Shown here: one piece after another, positions 2,181 through 30,408 of the stretch
How the letters are laid out: every line of letters begins with the position of its first letter
Position numbering within the stretch: the stretch's first letter is position 1
NCBI GenBank assembly: GCA_945929965.1
Contig: CAMEOT010000001.1
Coordinates: 1 to 64,000, forward strand
Length of the DNA stretch: 64,000 nucleotides
Reading direction: 5' to 3'
Source: an uncultured Lachnospiraceae bacterium
GTDB taxonomy: Bacteria; Bacillota; Clostridia; Lachnospirales; Lachnospiraceae
The notes under the pieces: model-generated
The model's database searches: none
What the model saw: the letters and a program-made list of their open reading frames with translations, nothing else
What the model was told of the DNA's origin: nothing
Position numbers and translations under genes: made by a program

Positions 2181-4292
2181 TTATACTTCAAAAATCAGAT
2201 CACCATAGGTAGGTACCGGCCATACCTTCTTGTCAACCATCATCTCCAGTGCATCCACGGGAGTTCTCAGGTCATCCATTGCGGTATGTACCACATCTTT
2301 ATAGAAGAAAGCAAGCTTCTTGGGATCTTCGATGCCTGCTGCCTCTGCCAGCTTATCCTCCAGAGTGGTCTCGGCAGCCTGTGCCTCTGCCAGCTTCTCG
2401 GAGATGCTCTTCAGTACCGTGGTCTGTACGGTAGCATCAGCGCCTGCGCTCTTTACAGCCAGTACGGTATCAGCCAGGGTCTTGGTGTACTCCATAACTG
2501 CGGGAATGTACTGCTTCTTCGCCATATCTACCATGGTCAGAGCTTCGATATTGATGGTCTTGGAGTAGGTTTCGTACAGAACCTCCTCACGGGATCTTAA
2601 CTCCGCCTCGGTGAAGATACCGAACTTCTCGAACAGTTTGATGGACTTCTCGGTGGTTAGAGTCTCGGAAGCCTCTACCATGGACTTGATGTTGGGAAGT
2701 CCTCTTCTGGCTGCCTCTTCTACCCATTCCTCGGAATAACCGTTACCGTTGAAAATGATTCTCTGATGCTCGGTCAGATACTTCTTGATCAGATCATGAA
2801 CGGCAACATCGAAATCGTCTGCCTTCTCCAGAATGTCTGCTGCCTCGCAGAAAGCTTCTGCAACGATAGCATTCAGAGTGGTGTTGGGGCTAGCGATGGA
2901 ATCTGCACTACCTACCATACGGAACTCGAACTTGTTGCCGGTGAAAGCAAACGGTGAAGTTCTGTTACGGTCTGTTGCATCCTTATCCAGATCCGGCAGT
3001 GTGGATACGCCGGTCAGAAGCTTACCACCCTGGATAGAATGGGTTGCATCACCGGTCTCAACCAGCTGCTTTACCACATCCTCCAGCTGCTCACCCAGGA
3101 ATACGGAGATGATGGCAGGGGGTGCCTCGTTGGCTCCCAGTCTGTGATCGTTGCCGACATCGGATGCACTCTGACGAAGCAGATCTGCATGGGTATCTAC
3201 GGCTTTCAGAATACATGCCAGTACCAACAGGAACTGGATGTTCTCGTTAGGAGTGTCGCCGGGATCTAACAGGTTCACGCCATTATCAGTTCCCAGGGAC
3301 CAGTTGTTATGTTTACCGGAGCCGTTCACTCCGGCGAAAGGCTTCTCATGCAGCAGACAGGTCATTCCATGACGACCGGCTACTTTTTTCATCGTCTCCA
3401 TAACCAGCTGGTTATGATCTACTGCGATGTTAGCAGTCTCATAAATGGGTGCCAGTTCATGCTGTGCGGGAGCTACCTCGTTGTGCTGTGTCTTGGCGGT
3501 TACGCCCAGCTTCCACAGCTCAATATTCAGATCCTTCATGAAGGAACCGATTCTCTCGCGGATGGTACCAAAGTAATGATCCTCCAGTTCCTGTCCCTTG
3601 GGTGCGGGTGCACCGAACAGGGTGCGTCCTGCGAAGATCAGATCTTCACGCTTTAAGTATTTATCTCTGTCTACCAGGAAATATTCCTGCTCCGGTCCTA
3701 CACTTGCTACGACCTTGGTAGCTTCGGTATTGCCGAACAGTCTTACGATACGCAGTGCCTGGGTGCTGACAGCTTCCATGGAACGAAGCAGGGGTGTCTT
3801 CTTATCCAGTGCCTCACCCTTGTAAGAACAGAAAGCAGTGGGAATGCAAAGGATCACGCCGGTTGCATCTTCTTTCAGAAATGCAGGAGATGTGATATCC
3901 CATGCGGTATAGCCTCTTGCCTCAAAGGTTGCTCGTAAGCCTCCGGAGGGAAAGGAAGATGCATCGGGCTCGCCCTTGATCAGTTCCTTGCCGGAGAACT
4001 CCATGATCATCTTACCTGATTCATCGGGATGAGTTACGAATGCGTCATGCTTCTCAGCAGTGATACCGGTCAGAGGCTGGAACCAGTGAGTATAATGTGT
4101 TGCACCGTTCTCGATTGCCCAGTCCTTCATTGCTTTTGCCACAACATCTGCGGTAGCTAAAGACAGCTCTCCGCCATGATCAATGATCTTCTTCACTTCT
4201 TTGTAGACGCTCTTGGGTAATCTTTCCCTCATCTTACCCAGAGTGAATACCTTACTGCCAAAGATTTCTTCCACATTTAATACTTCACTCAT
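2181..4292 (-). CDS. glnN: Glutamine synthetase type III
   Basis: About 700 aa; motifs [42 protein letters not shown] typical of GSIII; SD GGAGGAAACGAAGATG before MSEVLNVEE. Confidence 0.96.
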   Translation of the reverse strand: MSEVLNVEEIFGSKVFTLGKMRERLPKSVYKEVKKIIDHGGELSLATADVVAKAMKDWAIENGATHYTHWFQPLTGITAEKHDAFVTHPDESGKMIMEFSGKELIKGEPDASSFPSGGLRATFEARGYTAWDITSPAFLKEDATGVILCIPTAFCSYKGEALDKKTPLLRSMEAVSTQALRIVRLFGNTEATKVVASVGPEQEYFLVDRDKYLKREDLIFAGRTLFGAPAPKGQELEDHYFGTIRERIGSFMKDLNIELWKLGVTAKTQHNEVAPAQHELAPIYETANIAVDHNQLVMETMKKVAGRHGMTCLLHEKPFAGVNGSGKHNNWSLGTDNGVNLLDPGDTPNENIQFLLVLACILKAVDTHADLLRQSASDVGNDHRLGANEAPPAIISVFLGEQLEDVVKQLVETGDATHSIQGGKLLTGVSTLPDLDKDATDRNRTSPFAFTGNKFEFRMVGSADSIASPNTTLNAIVAEAFCEAADILEKADDFDVAVHDLIKKYLTEHQRIIFNGNGYSEEWVEEAARRGLPNIKSMVEASETLTTEKSIKLFEKFGIFTEAELRSREEVLYETYSKTINIEALTMVDMAKKQYIPAVMEYTKTLADTVLAVKSAGADATVQTTVLKSISEKLAEAQAAETTLEDKLAEAAGIEDPKKLAFFYKDVVHTAMDDLRTPVDALEMMVDKKVWPVPTYGDLIFEV

Positions 4293-4417: not shown

Positions 4418-4457
4418 CAAAAAAGGCGCTACACTCCTAGTGTAAACGCCTTCGTTT
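4418..4457 (-). promoter_or_regulatory. Leader terminator/attenuator hairpin with overlapping alternative hairpin upstream of glnN
   Basis: RNA sense AAGGCGTTTACACTAGGAGTGTAGCGCCTTTTTTG (stem plus U tract); 5' strand overlaps AAAC-GAAGGC-GTTT. Confidence 0.65.
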
Positions 4458-4505
4458 CGCATTGAAAAATATTAACTTGTGAGGATCGCTCCTCTATGGT
4501 TCATT

Positions 4506-4534
4506 ACTATACAACAGTTTTTTTTCGATTGCAA
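4506..4534 (-). promoter_or_regulatory. Sigma-A-like promoter of glnN
   Basis: TTGCAA-17 bp-TATAGT on the minus strand. Confidence 0.65.
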
Positions 4535-4587: not shown

Positions 4588-6699
4588 CTATACCTCGAAA
4601 AGCAGATCCGCATAGGTCGGGAACGGCCAGTACTTTTTATCTACCAGCTTCTCCAGTTCATCCGCAGGTCTTCTCAGAGCGTTCATTGCCACCATGACTT
4701 TATCGTGATAGCAGAATGCCTGCTCCTTGCCTCTGGGCATGGCAGAAGCTTTCTTCTCCTCTTCTAACAGTGCCTCGGATGCCTTCTCCATCTCCGTCAG
4801 CTTCTGTGTGATCTGCTGCAGCATACGGGTAGGAACATACGTGTCTCCGCCGGCCTCTGTGATAGCGATCACAGCATCCGCCAAAGACTTGCTGTACTTC
4901 ATGACTGCGGGGATGATCTGCTTATTCGCCATATCCAACATGGTCAGCGCCTCGATATTGATGGTCTTCGCATAGGTCTCATACAGTACCTCCGCACGGG
5001 AGCGCAGCTCTGCTTCGGTGAAAATACCGAACTTTTCAAACAGATGGATCGCCTTGGGGGTGGTCAGGGTGTCTACTGCCGCCACCATGGAAGGAATGTT
5101 GGGCAATCCTCTTCTGGCTGCTTCTTCTTCCCATTCCTTGGCATAACCGTTGCCATTGAAAATAATTCTCTGATGCTCGGTCATATATTCCTTGATCAGA
5201 TCATGAACTGCCATATCGAAATCTTCCGCACCTTCCAGGCGGTCTGCTGCTTCGCAGAAAGCCTCTGCCACAATGGCATTCAGAGTGGTGTTGGGACTTC
5301 CGATGGAATCCTCGCTTCCCACCATACGGAACTCGAATTTATTACCGGTAAACGCGAAAGGTGACGTACGGTTTCTGTCCGTCGCATCCTTTACAAAATC
5401 AGGAAGCGTAGATACACCGGTACGGAGCATGCCGCCCTCTTTCAGATTATCCGCTTTACCGGTCTCTACCAGCTGTGACACGACATCCTCCAGCTGCTCA
5501 CCCAGGAAAATAGAGATGATAGCAGGAGGTGCCTCATAGCCACCCAGTCTGTGATCGTTGCCTACGTTGGACGCACTCTGGCGCAGCAGATCCGCATGGG
5601 TATCTACTGCCTTCATGATACATGCCAGCACTAATAAAAACTGAATATTTTCATTCGGGGTCTGTCCCGGCTCTAACAGATTCACACCGTTGTCCGTGGT
5701 GATAGACCAGTTATTATGCTTACCGGAACCGTTCACTCCGGCAAAAGGCTTCTCATGCAGCATACAGCGCAGGCCATGTTTGCCTGCCACACGCTTCAGT
5801 GTCTCCATTACCAGCTGGTTATGGTCCACTGCCACATTCGCGGATTCGTAGATGGGAGCCACTTCGTGCTGTGCGGGAGCTGCCTCATTATGCTGGGTCT
5901 TGGAAGTCACGCCCAATTTCCACAGCTCAATATTCACGTCATGCATAAATCCGCCGATACGCTCACGGATAACACCGAAATAATGGTCATCCATCTCCTG
6001 ACCCTTAGGTGCAGGGGCACCGAACAGGGTGCGTCCGGAGAAAATAATATCTTCACGCTGCAGCGCCTTGGCAGAATCCACCAGGAAATATTCCTGTTCT
6101 GCACCGACGGAAGGCAGTACCTTGGTTGCCTCTGTATTACCGAACAGACGTACAATGCGGATTGCCTGTTTGCTCAAAGCTTCCATGGAACGAAGTAACG
6201 GTGTCTTTTTATCCAGAGCTTCGCCCTTATAAGAACAGAAAGCAGTGGGGATACAAAGCGTCGGACCGGTTGCTGTCTCTTTGATAAATGCAGGAGAGGT
6301 AATATCCCATGTGGTATAACCTCTTGCCTCAAAAGTCGCACGCAAGCCCCCGGACGGGAAAGAAGATGCATCAGGCTCGCCCTTGATCAGTTCCTTACCG
6401 GAAAATTCCATGATCATACGGCCATCCTCATCGGGATGTGTTACAAAAGCATCGTGTTTTTCAGCGGTGATACCGGTCAACGGCTGGAACCAATGAGTAT
6501 AATGGGTTGCCCCGTTCTCGATCGCCCAGTCTTTCATTGCTGTTGCCACCACATCGGCAGTCGCCAGGGAAAGTTCTCCTCCCTGATCCATGACTTTCTT
6601 GACTTCTTTGTAAGTGCTCTTGGGGAGTCTCTCTTTCATTTTACCCAAAGTAAATACTTTGCTGGCGAAAAGCTCCTCTACATTTAATTCTTCGCGCAT
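4588..6699 (-). CDS. glnN: Glutamine synthetase type III (second tandem copy)
   Basis: Highly similar to the 2181-4292 product across its length; start [10 protein letters not shown]. Confidence 0.95.
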
Positions 6700-29480: not shown

Positions 29481-29556
29481 GTAGGGTTGCCGTAGACCCC
29501 ACGAACGCCCGCGGCGAACGGAACATCACACCTTAATGTCGCGTCTCCAGGTGTGA

Positions 29557-29687
29557 ATTTTCTACGAAAAGTGATATAGCGGTTCTAATCCGTACGGGCA
29601 CGGCTCCAGTTGCCATCCATGGCAACGTCCGCCTGTCGCGAACGTCCTGTTCGCTCCACCCTGTCTTTCAGCACTTTTCAAGAAAAT
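29557..29687 (+). repeat. Left copy of structured inverted element flanking a tandem repeat
   Basis: ATTTTCTACGAAAAGTG...GTTGCCATCCATGGCAAC...GCGAACGTCCTGTTCGC...CACTTTTCAAGAAAAT; matches reverse complement of 30162-30296. Confidence 0.75.
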
Positions 29688-29796
29688 ATCAACACCCTCC
29701 GACAGACATCGCGGCATGACATTCCGTCCGCCGTGGGCGTTCTGTGTTTTGAAAATCCCATGAAAAAATATTAAGCCTATCTCATGTTACTGGTTT

Positions 29797-30085: not shown

Positions 30086-30161
30086 TAAATAATTGGGATG
30101 TTTTTCATAACCCAGCAGAAAAGGACTGCTCCCCCGGCGTAGATGCGGCGGAGACTGTGAG

Positions 30162-30296
30162 ATTTTCTTGGAAAGTGGTTGAACCGCAGGGGCAATGCGA
30201 ACACGATGTTCGCGTTAGCCGATAAGTGCCATGGATGGCAACGTAAAGGCGGCCCCGTCATGATGAGAAGCACCTGGCCACTTTCCTTTAGAAAAT
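30162..30296 (-). repeat. Right (inverted) copy of structured element flanking the tandem repeat
   Basis: Reverse complement reads ATTTTCTAAAGGAAAGTGG...GTTGCCATCCATGGCA...GCGAACATCGTGTTCGC...CCACTTTCCAAGAAAAT. Confidence 0.75.
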
Positions 30297-30408
30297 CCAC
30301 AGTTGTAGCTAGCATCCGAGTCCGGGGCGGGCAGCCCATTCTGCGTGGATTTTAGAACAACTATTTCACTAACTTTCAAGTTAGTTTGGTGTAAAAACTC
30401 TAAAAACA

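Follow-up and report, generated by a model that had tools for sequence, protein, structure and literature searches.

The glnN locus and its leader

The stretch of DNA considered here (the window) comprises 64,000 nucleotides from the draft genome of a Lachnospiraceae bacterium (3.04 Mb in 62 contigs, 99.9% complete). The minus strand of this window contains a tandem pair of type III glutamine synthetase genes, namely, an upstream glnN copy (4588..6699), recognized by Pfam and probably starting at the ATG at position 6699, with the longest ORF extending to 6768, and a second glnN copy (2181..4292), assigned on the basis of the Pfam domains GSIII_N, Gln-synt_C and Gln-synt_C-ter. The leader addressed here sits between the two and precedes the second copy, the gene proposed to be regulated. 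Elsewhere in the window, two TwoAYGGAY RNA motifs (RF01731) are found on opposite strands and pointing apart, at 29542-29704 (-) and 30146-30311 (+).

Examination of the minus-strand sequence upstream of the second glnN revealed a -35 box (TTGCAA; 4529..4534) and, after a spacer of 17 nt, a -10 box (TATAGT; 4506..4511). Such promoters are consensus calls, and transcription is expected to start near 4499, as judged by the usual spacing from the -10 box; the initial annotation had proposed the same promoter, with a start near 4498. Promoters of this type (TTGCA-17-TATnnT) are conserved among same-genus glnN leaders. Downstream of the predicted start, three elements, read on the minus strand, lie where they had originally been placed, namely, an accessory hairpin, P1 (4481..4494), a hairpin, P2 (4444..4457), corresponding to AAAC-GAAGGC-GUUU with a hexaloop at 4448-4453 closed by a C:G pair, and an intrinsic terminator (4419..4452), detected by folding, with AAGGCGUUUACAC...GUGUAGCGCCUU as its arms (4452-4440 and 4434-4423) and a U tract reaching 4419. 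P2 is the proposed antiterminator and recognition site, as supported by the covariance model, pair counts and gene-selected test described below. Its 3' strand is shared with the terminator as the 5' strand of the latter, such that P2 and the terminator are mutually exclusive, confirming an overlap noted at the outset.

The leader folds with an energy of -28 kcal/mol, as compared to -16.6 +/- 2.7 kcal/mol for shuffled sequences (z = -4.25). The terminator accounts for -14.9 kcal/mol, whereas P2 comes to +0.4 kcal/mol with a hexaloop or to -1.6 kcal/mol with a tetraloop, given that the loop of P2 in the window can close via G1-C6. With the terminator being far stronger, P2 would prevail only with the help of a protein. 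Such an arrangement is that of a leader whose default state is off.

P2 contains one G4 hexaloop and a stem of 3 bp or longer, in line with the minimal single-hexaloop definition (Walshe et al., 2022). When compared to the dual-hexaloop definition (Ramesh et al., 2012), P2 presents the exclusivity with a terminator, G4 and the C:G closing pair, yet carries G rather than A at loop position 1. The initial annotation had considered this G an imperfect match. The G is indeed present, although it is a minor issue, as 22 of the 81 members of the family carry G1; A1, moreover, makes no direct contact in the crystal structure of EutV bound to RNA (PMC8934654).

The only ANTAR protein of the genome

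As originally stated, no ANTAR protein is encoded within the window. An ANTAR regulator, the absence of which from the genome was to count against ANTAR control, was sought and found elsewhere, with the genome encoding exactly one ANTAR protein, a NitR-like protein of 182 residues. Its gene lies directly after glnA, and an ANTAR protein beside glnA is what a NitR-type ANTAR regulon calls for. The name NitR, used here for this NitR-like protein, is borrowed from the ANTAR protein of C. saccharobutylicum, which PMC6316151 (citing Stutz 2007) reports to act by antitermination, inducing GS/GOGAT genes upon nitrogen limitation. In genomes G049 and G056, ANTAR genes are found just upstream of glnN.

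NitR is 99% identical to NitR of Lachnospiraceae bacterium GAM79. In the AlphaFold model of the GAM79 protein (mean pLDDT 88), a long helix and an ANTAR bundle accompany a receiver-like domain. The best PDB matches of the model are EutV, Rv1626 and RNA-bound EutV, with AmiR-AmiC being matched as well. As read from an alignment of 31 NitR proteins, the positions of the phospho-accepting Asp and the conserved Lys are replaced. As such, NitR lacks the phosphorylatable receiver (Asp) of EutV/EutW-type regulators, although the fold is still receiver-like, and its state is probably set by a ligand or by a partner protein rather than by a kinase. Among those EutV residues that contact RNA, K149, E160 and M172 are kept in NitR, while position 164 (Y164 in EutV) is occupied by His or another aromatic residue; R142, R168, R175 and R177 are not retained in NitR of the window genome.

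A family of terminator-overlapping hexaloop hairpins

The glnN leaders of relatives share a GAAC/GUUC or AAAC/GUUU stem and a purine-rich hexaloop overlapping a terminator. When 67 glnN upstream regions were chosen by gene alone, a terminator-overlapping R1/G4 hexaloop hairpin was detected in 31, as compared to 3 of 335 shuffled sequences (~1%) and 5 of 67 regions read on the opposite strand. Many of the regions in which the hairpin was not found precede second glnN copies or come from genomes lacking an ANTAR gene, and no P2-type motif was detected by this test upstream of the 4588..6699 copy in the window. When loops were scored by size with no sequence filter, G1-C6 loops also count as tetraloops.

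A covariance model comprising P2 and the terminator (model R1) was built from 34 leaders and later refined for a class-wide search. Over 81 sites, the loop consensus is R-A-N-G-R-N with a C:G closing pair; G4 and the closing pair appear in 81/81 sites, partly by construction, with A1 in 59 and G1 in 22. Because the first members were chosen partly by an R1/G4 filter that the model inherits, the invariance of the loop is partly built in and the 100% occurrence of G4 cannot be counted as independent evidence, unlike the gene-selected test and the association with ANTAR genes. The P2 stem covaries, with 64 cells being changed on both sides, as compared to 26 +/- 4 upon shuffling (none of 500 shuffles as high). 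In earlier SELEX experiments, NasR selected a C:G closing pair and A1/G4 (PMC7496416).

When the model was used to search the genome outside the window as well, two credible sites were obtained, namely, the glnN leader (E 8.5e-5) and the leader of an ABC transporter (E 0.003). The latter, on contig 28, consists of TTGACA-17-TATAAG, about 9 nt, AAAAC-AAAGGC-GUUUU and then a terminator, and precedes genes encoding an amino-acid ABC ATPase and a binding protein, i.e., a glutamine-type ABC transporter (glnQ operon). A Clostridiales-1 RNA (RF01699; L099:2878-3027 (-)) lies in the same stretch as this operon. Weaker matches (E 0.6-4) were rejected, as a promoter, P2 or a plausible gene was missing. 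The hexaloop motif is absent from the glnA-nitR leader of the window genome. The flagellin terminator that precedes glnA does have a hexaloop close by (L002, about 12650), but the two were judged to overlap by chance and the site was discarded. The glnA-nitR leaders of both this genome and GAM79, which lack a hexaloop, contain a hairpin, UUUUUCACGG...CCGUGGAAAA, close to the ribosome-binding site (L002:11500-11720 (-) and L249:1250-1640).

One hexaloop rather than two

Dual-hexaloop ANTAR leaders at nitrogen genes, including those encoding glutamine synthetase, were reported in 2012 (PMC3369931, PMC3369936), and it was proposed in the initial annotation that the glnN leader presents this architecture, with P1 drawn as GAGG-AGCGAU-CCUC, i.e., as a hexaloop with A1 and G4. 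Were this a classical dual-hexaloop leader, NitR would have to engage P1 (AGCGAU) and then P2. While P1 can be so drawn from the window sequence, the hairpin is better described as GAGGA-GCGA-UCCUC, with a GNRA-type tetraloop, on the basis of closing-pair covariation and energies: five base pairs and the GCGA tetraloop yield -5.8 kcal/mol, as compared to -3.9 kcal/mol for four base pairs and a hexaloop. In a hand-picked alignment of just six same-genus leaders, in which P1 is a short hairpin, hexaloop positions 1 and 6 change together so as to keep pairing (AU, GC, CG and UA), leaving the tetraloops GCGA, GCAA, GAGA, GGAA, GGAG and CAGA. In the leader at L008, loop position 4 is A. P1 in the window is closed by G:C rather than by C:G, and is separated from P2 by a linker of 23 nt, beyond the published range of about 5-12 nt; in the eut system, where linkers are of 5-12 nt, induction is already impaired at 14 nt. 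Neither the upstream second hexaloop nor the short linker of the dual-hexaloop definition (Ramesh et al., 2012) is thus found in the window. P1 also varies among the longer same-genus leaders, is missing or different in relatives, and is not found in the L006 and L023 leaders. P1 may serve to assist folding or to shield the 5' end, although this is a guess. An element resembling CACAT-A/C-GGTATNTTR is shared by the long glnN leaders of the genus (L007, L010, L018, L022 and others), directly 5' of P2.

The same picture emerges across sites. Of the 74 sites with a recognizable promoter, 48 have 5-21 nt between the -10 box and the start of P2, too little to accommodate a P1, such that the transcript starts with, or nearly with, P2; in glnA-nitR leaders, the distance is 4-7 nt in 14 of the 15 measured. 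A canonical hexaloop no more than 45 nt upstream of P2 was seen in three of 108 sites, corresponding to two true duals, at glnN (L121) and amtB (L202), and one tandem attenuator. A further true dual-hexaloop leader precedes a eutVW-like ANTAR regulator-kinase operon in genome G056 (L039 (-) 940-1030); since both of its hairpins were found, the method is able to see duals. In the same genome, the nitR-glnN leader contains one A1/G4 hexaloop, preceded by a further hexaloop in which position 4 is U. Downstream of P2, a second hexaloop occurs in seven of 108 sites, as compared to 1.8 expected by chance, with some of these being tandem attenuators. In 26 long leaders, A1/G4 hexaloops number 8, as compared to 3.1 in shuffled sequences; this excess was rejected as reflecting duals, as it comprises P1 of the window, tandem sites, one true dual and unrelated hairpins. 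Accordingly, although true dual hexaloops exist in the related data, a classical dual-hexaloop arrangement at the window glnN, with most sites offering no counterpart of P1, is quite unlikely.

The motif accompanies ANTAR genes and nitrogen assimilation genes

To address distribution, 293 genomes of class members, each at least 90% complete, were sampled, 156 with an ANTAR gene and 137 without. The motif was detected in 67 of the former and in six of the latter (p = 8e-16, a value inflated by shared ancestry, as the genomes are not phylogenetically independent). Physical linkage and gene context are not tied to ancestry in the same manner: an ANTAR gene is found no more than 12 kb away from 28 of 99 sites, when 0.85 would be expected. 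For some of the six exceptions, a sister species does carry an ANTAR gene; missing draft sequence and chance hits are both possible explanations.

In 60 relatives, sites precede glnN, glnA-nitR, amtB, P-II, gltB, pyrG, purF, glnQ, nifH and other genes. Of the 29 best class sites, 22 precede glnN, glnA, parts of gltB, amtB, glnQ or purF, while 72 of 81 near sites match one of 13 gene types, for which some reference genes were drawn from the hits themselves. Upstream of the glnA-nitR operon, a model hit was obtained in 16 of 36 named Lachnospiraceae loci. The targets are thus those of nitrogen assimilation, as expected of a NitR-type regulon. In genome G037 (L188, L087 (-)), a hexaloop leader precedes an apparent gatCAB operon (encoding a glutamine-using tRNA amidotransferase), with the gene assignment being made by reading, and in genome G004 (L186:301-400, L152), two tandem hexaloop-terminators precede a gene encoding a circularly permuted ATP-grasp protein.

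As the architecture of the leader alone does not name the regulator, the attenuator could respond to something other than NitR, be it a metabolite riboswitch, a T-box or another RNA-binding protein. However, an Rfam search of the leader at gathering and relaxed thresholds returned nothing credible, with no glutamine riboswitch, T-box or other family being matched, many leaders comprise little more than P2 and the terminator, and the motif tracks ANTAR genes class-wide, making such a sensor very unlikely. That the terminator is an ordinary, unregulated one serving the upstream glnN copy is scarcely credible, since, although it starts about 135 nt past the stop codon of that gene, a conserved promoter lies in between, P2-terminator units are also found behind the promoters of many unrelated genes, P2 covaries and the motif co-occurs with ANTAR genes.

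Discussion

It is proposed, with a probability of about 0.82, that the glnN leader is an attenuator controlled by the only ANTAR protein of the genome, the NitR-like protein, via one recognition hexaloop. The original notion of an ANTAR-type attenuator at a nitrogen gene is thus upheld, given the lone ANTAR gene beside glnA and the co-occurrence and physical linkage of motif and ANTAR genes, while the dual hairpin is not. The mutual exclusivity of the folds, the conservation of P2, the lack of a second hexaloop, the co-occurrence with ANTAR genes and the nature of the target genes all come from sequence comparison. By default, RNA polymerase would make about 80 nt and stop at the terminator. 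Active NitR, presumably under nitrogen limitation, would bind and hold the weak P2, with its C:G closing pair, A2, G4 and the purine at position 5; as the 3' strand of P2 is the 5' part of the terminator, the latter could not form and glnN would be transcribed. The binding by NitR, the direction of control and the nitrogen signal are what we infer from this layout. In the window genome, the same protein would also govern the glutamine-type ABC transporter, while in relatives its reach would extend to the ammonium and glutamine assimilation genes in general, in many cases with glnA-nitR among them.

As in the EutV system (PMC3369931, PMC8934654), a G4 hexaloop is found, with its 3' strand in an intrinsic terminator, together with an ANTAR regulator of the same fold. 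Unlike the EutV dual-hexaloop leaders, one hexaloop is seen here, often at the 5' end of the RNA, G1 is allowed and the receiver is degenerate. NasR, AmiR and NasT are likewise ANTAR proteins with non-phosphorylated sensing parts that act on nitrogen genes, yet their leaders differ from the glnN leader in having two-hairpin sites and in answering to other signals. NitR of C. saccharobutylicum, as described in PMC6316151 (citing Stutz 2007), is similarly an ANTAR protein linked to nitrogen genes and antitermination; relative to that description, the RNA site and a wider gene set are defined here by sequence comparison.

The accepted model invokes two hexaloops at fixed spacing, and both hairpins are needed in vivo in the eut system (PMC3369931). 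By contrast, the 2022 crystal structure of EutV shows a dimer holding just one hexaloop, the minimal binding site, even though both are still necessary for eut antitermination (PMC8934654); for NasR, binding to a single hairpin is weaker by about 12-fold (PMC7496416). In the literature searched, mostly outside subscription journals, no natural single-hexaloop attenuators at nitrogen genes were found. It is likely that the leaders described here represent a widespread class of ANTAR leaders in Clostridia, with a single hexaloop at or near +1, through which a phosphorylation-free NitR controls assimilation genes and often its own operon. In such a class, a second hexaloop would be no general requirement. 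A natural, widely distributed single-hexaloop class would hence provide a direct test of which arrangement is the rule. Most of these sites would escape a search that requires two hairpins, while the single-hexaloop class would make a nitrogen regulon readable in Clostridia of the gut and the environment.
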